In this document: in pieces, positions 8,592-14,160 of the stretch
Layout: every line of letters starts with the position of its first letter
How positions within the stretch are numbered: the stretch's first letter is position 1
Source of the DNA: Cellulomonas chengniuliangii
Lineage (GTDB): Bacteria > Actinomycetota > Actinomycetes > Actinomycetales > Cellulomonadaceae
Length of the DNA stretch: 64,000 nt
NCBI RefSeq assembly: GCF_024508335.1
Contig: NZ_CP101988.1
Span: 992,001 to 1,056,000, forward strand
Direction of reading: 5' to 3'
The notes under the pieces: model-generated
Databases searched by the model: none
Told to the model about the DNA's origin: nothing
Seen by the model: the letters and a program-made list of their open reading frames with translations, nothing else
Position numbers and translations under genes: made by a program

Positions 8592-8695
8592 GGCGGGGCC
8601 TCTCGGTGCGGGGGAGGATGACGACGACGGTACGCCGGAGCGCTGGACGAGGGCGCTGCGCCTCGGTTTCGGACGAATCGGACCGTGGACCTGTC

Positions 8696-8701
8696 TACCC
8701 T
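8696..8701 (+). promoter_or_regulatory. -10 element TACCCT, leaderless start of MscS gene
   Basis: TACCCT ends 7 bases before GTG 8709, favouring that GTG as a leaderless start over the in-frame GTG at 8685, which lies upstream of the -10. Confidence 0.5.
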
Positions 8702-8708
8702 GGTCCGC

Positions 8709-10319
8709 GTGCATCCCCTTCTCGTCATCCTCGTCGCCGTCGTCCTGGCCCTCGTCGCGGAGATCTTCGTCGCCACGCTGGTGCACCGGGCTGTGCGCCG
8801 CTCACCCCTCGCCGTGGCCCTCGTCGACGTCAGCCGCCGCCCGCTGCGCGTCACGCTCGTGGCGGCCGCCGCGTGGATCGCGCTGGGCGCCTCGGCGGAT
8901 CCCACACCGGCCGTCCTGGTCCTCGAGTCCCTGCTCCTCGCCGCGCTGATCCTGGCGCTGGCGTGGCTGCTCACCGCCGTCGTGCTGCGCTTGGAGGACG
9001 CCGCCCTGGCGCACCACCAAGCCGTCGCGTTCGACGCGCGCGGGCAGGACGAGGCGGGCTTCGACCCGCATGCCCTCGCGCTGCAGACCCGGGTGCGCTC
9101 GCTGCTGCGGGGCGCGACGCGCGCCGCGCTCGGCTGCGCCGGCGCCGGCGCCGCGCTGCTGGTGTTCCCTGTGGTGCGGCCGGTGGGCGTCGGGTTGCTC
9201 GGGCTCGTGGCCGTCGCCGCTGTGGTGCTGGCCCTGGCTGCCCGCGAGCTGCTGGCCGACGTGGTCGCCGGCGTGCGCCTCGCGTACACCGACGCGGTGC
9301 GGGTCGGCGACGTGGTGGTGCTCGACGGCGACTGGGGCCTGGTCGAGTCGGTCGCCCTGACGACGCTGACGGTGCGCCTGGGCGAGGACCGGCACGTCCC
9401 GCTGCCCGCGTCGCAGGTGGCCACGGGGCGGTTCGAGAACCGCACCCGGGGCGCCGCGGAGATCGTGGGGGAGGTCGCGCTGGACGTCCCGCGCGACGTG
9501 GGCCTGCACGCCGTGCGGGAGCAGCTGCAGCAGGTGCTCGACGGGACGCCGCTGTGGGACGGCCACGTCGTGCGGCTGCGGGTGCTCGACGCCGTCGGGG
9601 CGCACGTGCGCGTGCGGGCCGAGGCCAGCGCGGCCGACGGGCCCTCGCTGCTCGCGCTGCGCGAGCACGTGCGGGAGTCGCTCGTGGGATGGCTCTCGGC
9701 GACGAGCCCCCAGACGGTCGGCGTGGGGGCGGGCGCGTGGGGGGCCGGGACCGCGGCGAGCAGTGTCACGACGTCCAGCGCCACGACGTCCAGCGCCACG
9801 ACGTCCAGCGCGTGGCGGCAGACGGCTGCGGCGATCGCGACGCCCACGACGAGCCGCTCGACCGCGCGCGAGCCCGTCGCGCAGCCGGCTGTCGAGCCGC
9901 AGCACGCCGCCGCGCAGCCCGGCCCTGCCCCGCACACCGGCCCTGCCCCGCACACCGGCCCTGCTCCGCACACCAGCCCAGCCCTGCAGCCCAGCCCCGT
10001 CCCGGAGCCGGGTCCTGCCTACCAGCCCGGCCCGGCCCACCAGTCCCGCGCGGAGCAGGCCCAGCCCGCCGAGAGCCGTCTGCCGGTGCGCCGCAGCGCT
10101 GTCCCGCGGGCGGCCGCCGCGCCCGCCCCGCAGGCATCGGCCCCCGACCAGTGGCTCGGCGGAGGCGCGGCCCCCGACCAGACCCAGGTCTACGCCCCGG
10201 CGCAGCTCGCCGGCCTGTACGACCAGGACCCGCGCGCCGGCGCCGCCGACGAGACCCAGGTGCTGGACCCGGCCGTCTTCGAGCGGCGGTCCAGCCGGCG
10301 AGAGCTCCGCGACTACTGA
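8709..10319 (+). CDS. MscS-family mechanosensitive channel with long repetitive C-terminal tail
   Basis: 536 residues. Four to five hydrophobic segments occupy roughly residues 2-190; the last (VGLLGLVAVAAVVLALAARE) merges into the MscS pore-helix and beta domain (LLADVVAGVRLAYTDAVRVGD, then FENRTRG). The protein should gate ions and solutes on hypo-osmotic shock in the cytoplasmic membrane. After about residue 340 comes a 190-residue Ala/Pro/Ser/Thr-rich tail absent from classical MscS, with three TTSSA-type units and three GPAPHT units. It ends with two related motifs, PDQTQVYAPAQ and DETQVLDPAVF. Start GTG 8709 is chosen from the -10 element. Confidence 0.82.
   Translation: MHPLLVILVAVVLALVAEIFVATLVHRAVRRSPLAVALVDVSRRPLRVTLVAAAAWIALGASADPTPAVLVLESLLLAALILALAWLLTAVVLRLEDAALAHHQAVAFDARGQDEAGFDPHALALQTRVRSLLRGATRAALGCAGAGAALLVFPVVRPVGVGLLGLVAVAAVVLALAARELLADVVAGVRLAYTDAVRVGDVVVLDGDWGLVESVALTTLTVRLGEDRHVPLPASQVATGRFENRTRGAAEIVGEVALDVPRDVGLHAVREQLQQVLDGTPLWDGHVVRLRVLDAVGAHVRVRAEASAADGPSLLALREHVRESLVGWLSATSPQTVGVGAGAWGAGTAASSVTTSSATTSSATTSSAWRQTAAAIATPTTSRSTAREPVAQPAVEPQHAAAQPGPAPHTGPAPHTGPAPHTSPALQPSPVPEPGPAYQPGPAHQSRAEQAQPAESRLPVRRSAVPRAAAAPAPQASAPDQWLGGGAAPDQTQVYAPAQLAGLYDQDPRAGAADETQVLDPAVFERRSSRRELRDY
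9767..9811 (+). repeat. Three tandem 15-bp repeats in the channel gene
   Basis: Three exact copies of CACGACGTCCAGCGC (9767-9781, 9782-9796, 9797-9811), in frame and coding for Thr/Ser/Ala repeats at the start of the disordered tail. The repeat is a likely length-variable site. Confidence 0.9.
9921..9974 (+). repeat. Three tandem 18-bp repeats in the channel gene
   Basis: Two exact copies of GGCCCTGCCCCGCACACC (9921-9938, 9939-9956) and a third with one substitution (9957-9974), in frame and coding for GPAPHT units in the channel tail. Confidence 0.9.
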
Positions 10320-10439: not shown

Positions 10440-11093
10440 ATGCATGTGGCCCGTCGCACCCTCATCTCCCTGGCAGCCGCGCTGGGGATCGTGGTCCTGG
10501 CCGTCCTTCCGGCCCAGGCAGCACCGTCGCAGCAGGACCAGAACTGGTTGGTCACCGCCCACCAGGGCAACCTCGCGGAGATCGCAGCGGGCCAGGCCGC
10601 GCTGCAGCAGTCCAGCAATGCCGAGGTCCGCGACCTCGGGCAGATGATCATCGACGACCATCAGCGGCTCGACGCTGACGTCACGGCCGCCGCGGGGCAG
10701 CTCGGCGTGACCCTCCCGGGCACGCCGAACGCGACGCAGCAGGCCGAGCTCGCGCAGGTCTCCGGGCTCACCGGAGAGCAGTTCGACCGTGCCTGGATCG
10801 CCTGGCAGATCACCGCGCACCGGCAGGCGCTCGCCGCCGGCGAGCAGGAGGTCGCGTCCGGGTCCGACCCGGCGGTCAAGGCGCTCGCGGCCGCCGCGGC
10901 GCCCGTCATCCAGGCGCACCTGGACATGACCCTGGCGCTCGCGCAGGCCTATGGCGTGCCGACGTCGGTGGCGGCCGGGAACGGCGGGTCCGAGGCCGGC
11001 TCGAGCCTCGGCCTCGGCGTGGGGCTGGCCGCCGGCGGGCTGCTCGTGATCGTGCTGTCCGGGGCGGCACTGGTGCGGCGCGCACGCGCGTGA
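10440..11093 (+). CDS. DUF4142 protein with C-terminal membrane anchor
   Basis: 217 residues. ATG 10440 has AGGAGGA six bases upstream. An N-terminal signal peptide ends near AQA (about residue 28). The DUF4142 ferritin-like helical bundle follows, with QDQNWLVTAHQGNLAEIAAG and DLGQMIIDDHQRLDADV as the hallmark helices. The C-terminus is a hydrophobic span followed by RRARA, laid out like a cell-wall sorting signal, but no LPXTG-like motif precedes it, so plain membrane anchoring is more likely. The stop overlaps the sortase start by 4 bp (GTGA), implying coupled translation. DUF4142 function is unknown. Confidence 0.85.
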   Translation: MHVARRTLISLAAALGIVVLAVLPAQAAPSQQDQNWLVTAHQGNLAEIAAGQAALQQSSNAEVRDLGQMIIDDHQRLDADVTAAAGQLGVTLPGTPNATQQAELAQVSGLTGEQFDRAWIAWQITAHRQALAAGEQEVASGSDPAVKALAAAAAPVIQAHLDMTLALAQAYGVPTSVAAGNGGSEAGSSLGLGVGLAAGGLLVIVLSGAALVRRARA

Positions 11094-11812
11094 CCCCTCG
11101 GACGGGCCTCGTGACGCGCGTCCTCGGGGGCGCGCGTCGCGGGGCGTCCCGGGCGTGGTCTCGCATCGCCCGCCTGGCGCTCGTGCTCGGTGTCGCCGTC
11201 GGACTGGCGGCCGTCGGGACGGGCGCCTACCTGGCGTCGCAGCCCGCCCGGCTCGACATCGCCGAGGCGGGGGCGGCGCCGCTCCCGCCGCAGCCCGTGG
11301 CGGGCGGGAGCCCGTCTCCGCCGACTGCGGCGCCACCGGCGGCACCGGCGCCGGGCCGCGCCCCGGTCGAGCTGCGGCTGCCGGCCCCGGGGGACGGCGC
11401 CGCGGCGCCGCGACCTGCCGCCGTGGTCCCGGTGGGGGTGGAGCCGTCGGGCGCGCTGCAGGTGCCGACCGACGGCGCGGTGGTCGGCTGGTGGTCCTCG
11501 GGCGCGGCGCCGGGTGGCACGCAGGGCGCCGTGGTCCTGGCGGGCCACGTCGACACCGTGGCGGGCGCCGGCGCGATGCGCCAGGTGCTCGACCTGCCGC
11601 TGGGGTCGGTCGTGGAGGTCGTGGACGAGGCGGGCGGCGTCCTCGGCTACCGGGTCACGGGCCGCGAGCAGTTCGACAAGGCGGCGCTTCCCCGCGGGCT
11701 CTTCCGGGTGGATGGCCCTCCAGGGCTCGTGCTCATCACCTGCGGAGGGACCTTCGACGCCCGGACGGGCCACTACAGCGACAACGTGGTGGTGTACGCC
11801 GAGCCGGTCTGA
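11090..11812 (+). CDS. Class F-type sortase domain protein
   Basis: 240 residues. One membrane span near residues 28-46 follows a basic cytoplasmic N-terminus; a Pro/Ala linker leads to a sortase domain from about residue 115. Catalytic His153 (AGHVDT) and Cys218 (LITCGG) are present. The catalytic Arg is less clear: Arg225 lies seven residues after Cys, while the position just before DN in HYSDN, often Arg in my memory of the family, is Ser. Sortases join surface proteins to the wall or act as housekeeping transpeptidases. Translational coupling to the DUF4142 gene suggests a functional pair. GTG start overlaps the upstream stop. Confidence 0.8.
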   Translation: MTPRTGLVTRVLGGARRGASRAWSRIARLALVLGVAVGLAAVGTGAYLASQPARLDIAEAGAAPLPPQPVAGGSPSPPTAAPPAAPAPGRAPVELRLPAPGDGAAAPRPAAVVPVGVEPSGALQVPTDGAVVGWWSSGAAPGGTQGAVVLAGHVDTVAGAGAMRQVLDLPLGSVVEVVDEAGGVLGYRVTGREQFDKAALPRGLFRVDGPPGLVLITCGGTFDARTGHYSDNVVVYAEPV

Positions 11813-11907: not shown

Positions 11908-12342
11908 ATGCCGATGACGGACAAGAAGGGCAAGGTCAAGAAGCGCGAGCTGCCCAGCACGGTGGCGCGCTCGAGCAAGAAGGCGCAACGGACGTTCGCG
12001 AAGGCGCATGACGCCGCCGCCGACGAGTACGGCGAGGGCGAGCGCGCGTACCGGGTCGCATACTCGGCGCTCAAGCACACCCACGAGAAGATCGGCGACC
12101 GCTGGAAGCGCAAGGACAAGGGCGCCAAGGGCCCCTCCGACGCGAAGGCCGCGGGCGGCCGTCAGGCGAGGGCGGCCACCTCGGGCGGGGTCGACGCCAA
12201 CTCGAGCAAGGCGCACCTGTACGACGTCGCGAAGCGGCTGGAGATCGCCGGGAGGTCGTCGATGTCCAAGGGGGAGCTGGTCGACGCGATCCAGAGGGCG
12301 AACGACTCCAAGACGCGGGCCGCGCGGAGCCGGAAGGGCTGA
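11908..12342 (+). CDS. ChaB and Rho N-terminal domain protein
   Basis: 144 residues, very basic and soluble. Residues about 12-65 match the ChaB fold (RELPSTVARSSKKAQRTFAK, then EGERAYRVAYSALKHTHEKIG). A Lys/Ala linker leads to a Rho_N/SAP-like helical motif at about 98-135 (AHLYDVAKRLEIAGRSSMSK, then GELVDAIQRAN), suggesting nucleic acid binding. Function is unknown; such proteins are common in stress-related gene groups of actinobacteria. GGGAGG precedes the ATG with good spacing. Nine bases separate it from the ThDP enzyme gene, so the two are probably co-transcribed. Confidence 0.82.
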   Translation: MPMTDKKGKVKKRELPSTVARSSKKAQRTFAKAHDAAADEYGEGERAYRVAYSALKHTHEKIGDRWKRKDKGAKGPSDAKAAGGRQARAATSGGVDANSSKAHLYDVAKRLEIAGRSSMSKGELVDAIQRANDSKTRAARSRKG

Positions 12343-12351
12343 GGCGCCGCC

Positions 12352-14160
12352 ATGACGAACGTCTCGGACGCGATGGTGGCACGGCTCTCCGACTGGGGCG
12401 TCTCGCGCGTCTTCGGGTACGCGGGGGACGGCATCGACCCGATCCTGGCGGCGATCGGACGCGCCGAGGACCGCGTCGAGCTGGTGACCGCACGGCACGA
12501 GGAGATGGCCGCGTTCATGGCCACGGGCCACGCGAAGTACAGCGGTGAGGTGGGCGTGTGCCTGGCCACCCAGGGCCCGGGGGCGATCCACCTGCTCAAC
12601 GGCCTGTACGACGCGAAGCTGGACCGCAAGCCCGTGGTCGCGATCGTGGGGCAGGTGGTCAGCACCGCCCTGGGCAGCGGCTACCTGCAAGAGGTCGACC
12701 TGCAGACCTTGTTCAAGGACGTGTGCGGCCAGTACGTCCAGACCGTCACCCGGCCCGAGCAGCTGCCCCTCGTGCTCGACGACGCGATCCGCACGGCGCT
12801 GGCCACCTCGAGCCCCACCTGCGTGATCGTCCCCCACGACGTGCAGAAGGCCGAGGTCCCCGAGGCGGAGCAGCACGGGCACGGCCTGGTCTCCACCTCG
12901 ACCGCGTTCGCCCGGCCCCGGGTCGTCCCGCACGACGCGGACCTGGATCGCGCGGCGGAGCTGCTGAGCGCTGGCGAGCGGGTCGCGCTGCTCGTCGGGC
13001 AGGGCGCCGCGGGAGCCGCCGCCCAGGTGGAGCAGGTGGCGGGGCGGCTCGGCGCGGGGATCACGACGTCGCTGCTCGGCAAGCCGCACCTCGACGAGTC
13101 GCTGCCGTGGAACTGCGGTGTGATGGGGCACCTCGGCACCATCGCCTCCGCTGATCTGCTGGGGAGCTGCGACACCTTCCTCATCGTCGGCAGCAGCGAC
13201 CCCTGGACGGAGTTCTATCCAGCGCCAGGCCAGGCCCGCACCGTGCAGATCGACCTGGCGGCGCGCAACATCGGCGCCAAGCACCCGGTGGACGTGCCGC
13301 TGCCCGGCGACGCCGCCCTGACGTTGGACGCGCTGCTGCCGCGGCTGCGGCCCGCTGGGCCCGGCTGGCGCGACGAGGTCGAGGGCTTCGTGACGGCGTG
13401 GCGCGACATCGCCGAGCGCCGGGCGAGCCAGCCCGCCGAGCCGCTCAACCCCCAGCTCGTCGTGCGCGAGCTCTCCGCGCAGCTGCCCGCCGACGCCCAG
13501 GTCGCCGTCGACGTGGGCTCGGTGACGTACTGGTACGCACGGCACCTGCTCCTGCCCGCCGGTGTGCCGGTCCACCTGTCGTCGACGCTGGCCTCGATGG
13601 GCTCGGCGATGCCCTACGGGATCGCGGCGAAGCTGCTGCGCCCCGACCGGCCGGTGGTCGCGCTCGCGGGCGACGGGGCGATGCAGATGAACGGCCTGTC
13701 CGAGCTCGTGACCGTCGCCGCGCGCTGGCGTGAATGGGCCGACCCCCGGTTCGTCGTGCTGGTGCTGCACAACGGCGACCTCTCCGAGGTGACGTGGGAG
13801 CAGCGGGAGATGGAGGGCGACGGGCGCCTGCCCGCCTCGCAGGAGGTGCCGTCGTTCCCCTACGCCGGGTACGCCGAGCTGCTCGGGCTGCGCGGCATCC
13901 GGGTGGACTCTCCCGACGGCGTGGCAGGCGCATGGCGTGAGGCGCTCGCGGCGGACCGCCCGTGCCTCATCGAGGCGGTGGTGGACCCGGACGTCCCGCT
14001 GCTGGCGCCCCGGCAGCTGCAGGAGAAGGTGGACCAGACGCGCCGTGGTCTGGCGCAGGAGCCCGCCGGCGACCGCGCGGAGGGCATGCTCGACGCGCAG
14101 CGCCGACACGAGCGCGACCACGACCCGGCGGGGATGTCCCGCCGCGACCAGGACGACTGA
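12352..14160 (+). CDS. Thiamine-diphosphate enzyme, pyruvate oxidase/dehydrogenase-like
   Basis: 602 residues in the three-domain layout of PoxB-type enzymes. Glu50 (RHEEMAAF) is the residue that activates ThDP; the cofactor motif starts GDGAMQMNG with Asp441 and closes at HNGDLSEV about 30 residues on. The family decarboxylates pyruvate to acetate or transfers to another acceptor, often with FAD; the exact substrate cannot be read from sequence. The last 50 residues are charged and unlike the E. coli PoxB membrane-binding helix, so quinone coupling is uncertain. It shares a transcript with the ChaB-type protein and ends at a shared hairpin with the convergent DUF6480 gene. Confidence 0.85.
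   Translation: MTNVSDAMVARLSDWGVSRVFGYAGDGIDPILAAIGRAEDRVELVTARHEEMAAFMATGHAKYSGEVGVCLATQGPGAIHLLNGLYDAKLDRKPVVAIVGQVVSTALGSGYLQEVDLQTLFKDVCGQYVQTVTRPEQLPLVLDDAIRTALATSSPTCVIVPHDVQKAEVPEAEQHGHGLVSTSTAFARPRVVPHDADLDRAAELLSAGERVALLVGQGAAGAAAQVEQVAGRLGAGITTSLLGKPHLDESLPWNCGVMGHLGTIASADLLGSCDTFLIVGSSDPWTEFYPAPGQARTVQIDLAARNIGAKHPVDVPLPGDAALTLDALLPRLRPAGPGWRDEVEGFVTAWRDIAERRASQPAEPLNPQLVVRELSAQLPADAQVAVDVGSVTYWYARHLLLPAGVPVHLSSTLASMGSAMPYGIAAKLLRPDRPVVALAGDGAMQMNGLSELVTVAARWREWADPRFVVLVLHNGDLSEVTWEQREMEGDGRLPASQEVPSFPYAGYAELLGLRGIRVDSPDGVAGAWREALAADRPCLIEAVVDPDVPLLAPRQLQEKVDQTRRGLAQEPAGDRAEGMLDAQRRHERDHDPAGMSRRDQDD

Follow-up and report, generated by a model that had tools for sequence, protein, structure and literature searches.

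Two adjoining genes lie on the forward strand of a 64,000-nucleotide stretch of DNA from the soil bacterium Cellulomonas chengniuliangii, the whole of which we call the window. The first, at 10440..11093 (ATG at 10440, stop codon at 11091-11093), encodes a DUF4142 protein of 217 amino acids, and the second, at 11090..11812 with a GTG start at 11090, encodes a sortase of 240 amino acids. As the initial annotation had noted, the stop codon of the former overlaps the start codon of the latter, the four shared nucleotides being GTGA (11090..11093, forward strand); an overlap of exactly 4 nt is possible at 8 of 15 DUF4142-linked loci and at 45 of 157 class F sortase loci. Upstream on the same strand, at 8685-10319, is a gene for an MscS-type channel (PF00924, 5.4e-9) with a long Pro/Ala-rich C-terminal part; 120 nt separate the end of this gene from the DUF4142 start codon. 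On the other side, the sortase gene is followed directly by a ChaB-domain gene (11908-12342, also forward), whose product carries a Rho_N-like C-terminal stretch scoring 24.2 bits, just below the cut-off of 24.9, and a gene for a thiamine-pyrophosphate enzyme of 602 amino acids occupies 12352-14160.

A close homolog of the DUF4142 protein (at least 56% identity) is present in 7 of 59 genomes, the host's own included, and in six of the seven a sortase gene is found directly downstream, one of these sortases being cut by the end of its contig. The seventh contig ends 38 nt past the DUF4142 stop codon, and another contig of that genome opens with a sortase fragment. A pair peculiar to this one genome, which the initial annotation had named as grounds for abandoning its reading, is thus not what we observe. 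The MscS-like, ChaB-type and thiamine-pyrophosphate neighbors were matched in none of 13 compared stretches (3.6-8.5 kb, each with all or part of the pair) at an E-value of 1e-6, which suggests that the two genes stay together while their genomic surroundings change.

Architecture and active site of the two proteins

The DUF4142 protein matches PF13628 with an E-value of 1.8e-37 (129.1 bits, against a gathering score of 27) and is the single DUF4142 match in the host genome. It has the layout of a protein with a sorting signal, in that a signal peptide, extending by eye to about residue 28, is followed by a helical bundle, a linker with the motif described below, a C-terminal membrane span and a basic tail. 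The bundle (10518..10952, forward strand) is ferritin-like in the AlphaFold model, with helices over residues 5-145 of the modelled stretch and a pLDDT of 95-99 per block of ten residues. Its nearest folds in Foldseek are DUF305 (3bt5, 2qf9) and the copper-bound CopM (5fej), with a TMt of 0.84 for 3bt5 and likewise for 5fej_B, described as Cu(I)-bound in its PDB title; a sequence search for solved DUF4142 relatives gave none at E ≤ 1. On the strength of these structural likenesses the domain may perhaps serve at the wall to bind a metal, copper or some other. This role as a metal binder fixed to the wall is a guess, because the Pseudonocardia branch has not retained most histidines of the domain. 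Five Pseudonocardia partners (L060, L066, L067, L075 and L078), in which most of the domain histidines are lost, have by eye a lipobox-like Cys near the N-terminus and keep the C-terminal signal and span too, that is, two anchors on one protein. Twin-arginine export was considered for the window protein, which has RR near its N-terminus, but was rejected because the RR is missing in the homolog L058.

Beyond the bundle, residues 154-167 of the modelled stretch have a pLDDT below 50 and no structure, and the motif sits in this unstructured stretch between the bundle and the membrane helix. The C-terminal membrane helix and the basic tail VRRARA (11007..11087, forward strand) are seen in a hydrophobicity scan and in the AlphaFold model, the latter showing a low-confidence helix of 27 residues (164-190 of the modelled stretch; pLDDT about 46-69). 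The hydrophobic span and terminal RRARA reported by the initial annotation are therefore present as described, and its statement that no LPXTG-type motif precedes the span also holds, because LPXTG, LAXTG and NPXTN are all absent there by eye.

The sortase comprises an N-terminal membrane span, a Pro/Ala-rich linker and a sortase barrel, and matches PF04203 with an E-value of 1.1e-12. Its match to the NCBIfam model class_F_sortase (NF033748) reaches 2.5e-29 over the core at 101.9 bits, below the cut-off of 166; the protein aligns and clusters with relatives that match this model, as all 28 aligned cores did, the window's included. The core is modelled with a pLDDT of 92.9, and all 50 Foldseek matches listed for it are solved sortases, with E-values from 2.1e-6. 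By sequence profile, solved sortases gave weak matches only, and the Cutibacterium acnes structure 5UUS is absent among the 52 profile matches listed and among the 50 Foldseek matches listed.

Both catalytic residues that the initial annotation had recognized are in place. Of 182 class F cores, 181 share His153 (11546..11548, forward strand), and 181 share Cys218 (11741..11743, forward strand), the remaining core having a gap at the Cys; this Cys lies within LITCGG, where the sortase superfamily has the pattern TLxTC. The Thr before the catalytic Cys is also found in 181 of the 182 non-redundant cores. Where class A sortases have their Arg, the window enzyme has Asn232 (11783..11785, forward strand), in a column that HMMER aligns to an Arg of 7s54 which we take to be the catalytic Arg of a class A sortase. 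This column holds 180 Asn, one Ser, one gap and no Arg in the 182 non-redundant cores. The Arg position that had been called unclear thus has no Arg, and this is no defect of the gene, since its relatives share the Asn. The window enzyme is a sortase by its fold and by its His and Cys, but it lies outside the His-Cys-Arg definition, which places the Arg on strand 8. Going by the sequences compared, the missing LPXTG and the missing clear Arg are both common to this type of sortase and not peculiar to the window gene. Another residue, Lys197 (11678-11680), is Lys in 172 of the 182 cores, which comes close to the conservation of the catalytic residues, and is a candidate for taking over part of the work of the missing Arg.

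In a class A complex, according to the part of PMC9520033 available to us, the Arg hydrogen-bonds the carbonyls of the P4 Leu and the P3 Pro and is not clearly in contact with the scissile carbonyl. Because the Arg contacts these two carbonyls, its loss would fit the loss of the Leu-Pro pair from the signal. One could also argue that the enzyme has given up transpeptidation and serves as a binding protein, or as a simple protease that cuts the DUF4142 protein free from the membrane; the almost universal exchange of Arg for Asn speaks for this, as does the strongly reduced activity of a class A sortase with a changed Arg (reported in the accessible part of PMC13257024). However, the conservation of His, Cys and the preceding Thr makes a dead enzyme unlikely, and the Asn, itself nearly fixed, looks selected, so that we regard a loss of transpeptidase activity as very improbable, although these data would be compatible with simple release by proteolysis.

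A conserved linker motif beside class F sortases

The linker of the window protein reads GVPTSVAAGNGGSEAGSS and contains the proposed sorting signal P174-T-S-V-A-A-G-N-G-G183 (10959..10988, forward strand), delimited from 17 aligned DUF4142 homologs that include Cellulomonas, Pseudonocardia and Gandjariella. In this alignment the linker core, P-x-x-V-x-A-G-x-x-G, is better conserved than the domain or the membrane span. Both Gly of A-G-x-x-G (G154 and G157 in alignment numbering) are invariant, accounting for 2 of the 11 invariant columns, and the Pro, Val and Ala of the core (P148, V151 and A153) are conserved to at least 90%. Mean pairwise identity within the DUF4142 group is 0.66 for the 12-residue signal, 0.47 for the domain and 0.34 for the span and tail, rising to 0.94 over four core signal positions that we had picked as conserved. 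The predicted scissile bond is Ala179|Gly180, between nucleotides 10976 and 10977. The initial annotation had left a choice between an unusual recognition sequence, perhaps in VPTSVAAGNGG, and another role for the sortase domain; the conserved pair and the conserved motif strongly support the former, while its interpretation as a whole is supported in part.

The motif first came to notice in the flanks of 30 loci and next around 80 named loci, those ranking highest among 583 confirmed places. Two patterns, R1 and the strict R2, were fixed before 80 validation stretches from other genomes were fetched, each being the first listed match per genome among the best class F matches, with the host and the earlier relatives excluded; G165 was skipped for lying at a contig start and G185 for an internal stop, and for G324 the next match was used, again because of an internal stop. 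Four validation sortases at least 90% identical to an earlier one and one locus with too little upstream DNA were removed, leaving 75, and from the training loci four were dropped for identity and seven for short upstream DNA. When more than one tail-anchored ORF lay upstream, we used the longest, by a rule that the patterns set beforehand did not contain.

An upstream tail-anchored ORF was present at 67 of the 75 validation loci and missing at eight. R1 was found at 54 of the 75 (shuffled mean 20.1, maximum 31, in 1000 shuffles of the 67 segments) and strict R2 at 30 of the 75 (shuffled mean 2.7, maximum 10, in 1000 shuffles); 13 of the 67 loci with a tail-anchored ORF lack R1. The corresponding R1 and R2 counts in the earlier sets were 24 and 17 of 27 loci, and 57 and 40 of 72. 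As controls, we used the 100 tail-anchored ORFs among 4333 six-frame ORFs of the fetched DNA, many of them surely not genes, of which 17 contained R1 and 11 R2. Most of the motif-bearing control ORFs lie near a sortase, and nine of the ten controls that carry the two-grammar motif (described below) are in stretches whose sortase lacks the motif directly upstream. The two-grammar patterns, written after all data had been seen, are found in 55 of the 67 validation segments against a shuffled mean of 0.5 and a maximum of 4. Over the 147 loci of the last two sets, the two-grammar motif is directly upstream in 107 and either upstream or elsewhere in the stretch in 116, and about a fifth (31 of 147) have no such partner in the fetched stretch. 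At nine loci (L110, L126, L172, L175, L177, L190, L192, L242 and L247) the motif-bearing ORF is elsewhere and not directly upstream. Counts based on adjacency are consequently lower bounds.

The motif recurs in many actinobacteria, and the domains that precede it are diverse. Among R1-positive partners in the two sortase clades introduced below, those of clade II (n = 71) include 51 with DUF4397 and 15 with DUF4142, those of clade I (n = 64) include 13 with DUF4397, 11 with CHRD and seven with an ice-binding domain, and some motif carriers have no assigned domain. One signal on several unrelated domains beside one type of enzyme looks like a sorting signal.

The host genome holds further sortases. 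Its class E sortase scores 254.9 bits against a cut-off of 160 and retains an Arg C-terminal to the Cys. A further sortase, the second of class F type in this genome, scores 104.5 bits, also below the NF033748 cut-off of 166. A PF04203 profile search of the genome returned two sortases and missed that of the window, so the number of host sortases that it gives may be low. The second class F-type sortase (C1:2432527-2433407) has its own upstream partner ending in SNPSGVQAGQAGLVD followed by a span and a basic tail, which gives this genome two private pairs. At C1:2926699-2926806 lies a protein with a LAATG-type signal, which is likely a substrate of the class E sortase, and PF00746 had no match in the genome at E ≤ 0.001. 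Given the class E enzyme with its Arg and the LAATG-type protein, this cell also seems to sort proteins in the ordinary way, and it could be that the DUF4142 protein is merely tail-anchored and shares no more than an operon with a sortase that serves unlinked substrates with an ordinary signal. The sortase, however, stays beside DUF4142 while the surrounding genes change, the linker motif is more conserved than the domain or the span, and the motif recurs on unrelated domains beside most of the examined sortases of this type. We therefore judge simple tail anchoring to be unlikely.

Two dialects of the proposed signal and the sortase tree

The tree of 157 sortases, built from few columns and with many open forks, divides into two large groups, the clade lists being read off by hand. 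Clade I partners carry P-x-G-G-V-x-T-G-x-G-[GS], with Pro at -7 in 96%, Thr at -1 in 83% and Gly at +2 in 94% (n = 71), and clade II partners carry P-x-x-V-x-[AST]-G-x-x-G, with Pro at -6 in 97%, Val at -3 in 92% and Gly at +3 in 92% (n = 75); the way in which the site was chosen favors P, V and G in these percentages, but not the spacing of the Pro. Position -1 in clade II is Ala in 59%, Ser in 23% and Thr in 12% (n = 75). The invariant Gly of the three partner alignments is partly built in, because these alignments hold R1-positive partners only, one of them being a hand-chosen 72 of 135. The letter before the Gly requires 24 changes on the sortase tree, compared with a shuffled mean of 64.8 and a minimum of 57 in 300 shuffles, and the DUF4142 partners require 4 compared with a shuffled mean of 14.5. 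The signal type thus varies together with the sortase type, and this agreement is in part a consequence of the shared ancestry of neighboring genes.

The Thr dialect is already represented in NCBIfam (release of June 2026) by NF058571, GVDTG_CTERM, a "GVDTG sorting domain". At E ≤ 0.01 this model recovers 47 of 64 R1-positive clade I partners and only 7 of 71 from clade II, the best at 4.5e-4, so that the Ala/Ser dialect is mostly missed. The two have in common a linker motif, a membrane helix and a basic tail, and a place beside class F sortases, and differ in that the window signal, like those of clade II, has Pro at -6, Gly at +3 and Ala, Ser or Thr at -1, whereas clade I has Pro at -7, Gly at +2 and Thr at -1. 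GVDTG_CTERM aligns to the linker in four of six DUF4142 homologs, at the same place as the window signal (14.9-18.2 bits, below the cut-off of 29), and does not match the other two of the six, nor the window DUF4142 protein at E ≤ 1. In the host genome it yields nine places at E ≤ 1, all below the cut-off and none of them the window DUF4142 protein; the best is the protein that ends in the LAATG-type signal, the runner-up is the protein paired with the host's other class F sortase, and two further places (L250, L251) have a span at the end without the motif. We found no paper on either dialect and none that pairs DUF4142 or DUF4397 with a sortase, in a literature search that took in few subscription journals, and GVDTG itself led only to papers that are unrelated by their titles and the beginnings of their abstracts.

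Across 296 genomes of the class, a class F sortase occurs in 87 of the 89 with GVDTG_CTERM and in 106 of the 207 without it, in raw counts that ignore kinship. The two exceptions (G258 and G315), which belong to one family, match GVDTG_CTERM and have no class F sortase match, and may reflect an orphan signal, a missed sortase or a false hit. These two, together with a single clade II partner (1 of 71) that matches GPS-CTERM at 2.7e-5, could be taken to mean that the linker is read by another envelope enzyme, such as a rhomboid-type or exosortase-type protease, with the sortase as a chance neighbor. Since the type of signal tracks the sortase clade, and a class F sortase accompanies GVDTG_CTERM in nearly every genome that has it, we consider such a chance association extremely improbable.

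Known sorting systems and the proposed reaction

The closest canonical system is that of class E and LAXTG, which is also actinobacterial, has an x-T-G-like end to its signal and the same three-part C-terminus. It differs in having Leu-Ala where the window-type signal has Gly/Ser-Val, and the host class E sortase keeps the Arg after its Cys, unlike the Asn of the window sortase (compare PMC5148588, as far as its text was accessible). The name class F is also used for SrtF of Cutibacterium acnes (PDB 5UUS; Di Girolamo 2019, known to us through citing papers), a class F enzyme studied in vitro that is reported to take LPXTG (PMC13257024 and PMC7451113, both in the parts available). Around its active Cys, a primer given in the part of PMC7451113 that we saw, translated by eye, reads A-I-V-I-Cys-W-D-Y-V-K and not TCGG, and owing to this difference "class F" may cover two things. 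A nearer parallel is found in Actinoplanes missouriensis, where srtF1 (AMIS_11010) and srtF4 (AMIS_36440) each adjoin a gene for a secreted protein with a span and a basic tail but no pentapeptide. The authors state that these neighbors may be substrates and, in the sections of PMC13251363 available, set them aside for want of a known pentapeptide and name no motif. The same 2026 paper reports no change in phenotype after deletion of all four class F sortases, and the role of these enzymes may, on that part of the account, be small or conditional.

In light of these comparisons, we propose, with a probability of about 0.82, that the window pair consists of a dedicated sortase and its own substrate, in which a non-canonical signal around VAA|GNGG replaces LPXTG; the pairing and the motif are read from sequence, and cleavage and wall attachment are what we infer from them. 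The DUF4142 protein would be exported, as its predicted signal peptide implies, and its C-terminal helix would insert and hold it in the membrane. The sortase, with His153 and Cys218 and with Asn232 in place of the Arg, would then recognize P-T-S-V-A-A-G-N-G-G, whereupon Cys218 would attack Ala179. A cut at Ala179|Gly180, corresponding to T|G of LPXTG, would release the tail, and the ferritin-like domain, with its putative role at the wall, would be handed to a peptidoglycan precursor. Class F sortases would on this view share a general signal, V-x-[T/A/S]|G-x-x-G with a preceding Pro, and the window protein would carry its Ala form.

Beyond this locus, we hold with moderate confidence that class F sortases of the TCGG type form a separate branch of transpeptidases in which the Arg has become Asn and which reads V-x-[T/A/S]|G-x-x-G in place of L-P-x-T|G. 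Most of them would be private enzymes with their own substrate, in two dialects, one with Thr and one with Ala or Ser, that co-evolved with the two sortase clades, and the window pair would be a ferritin-like case of the Ala dialect. A defined signal would make the substrates of class F sortases findable by sequence. It also points to the bond that deserves testing and hints at a reason for the absence of the usual Arg. Enzymes of this kind may also provide a ligation tool whose tag should presumably be ignored by LPXTG sortases.
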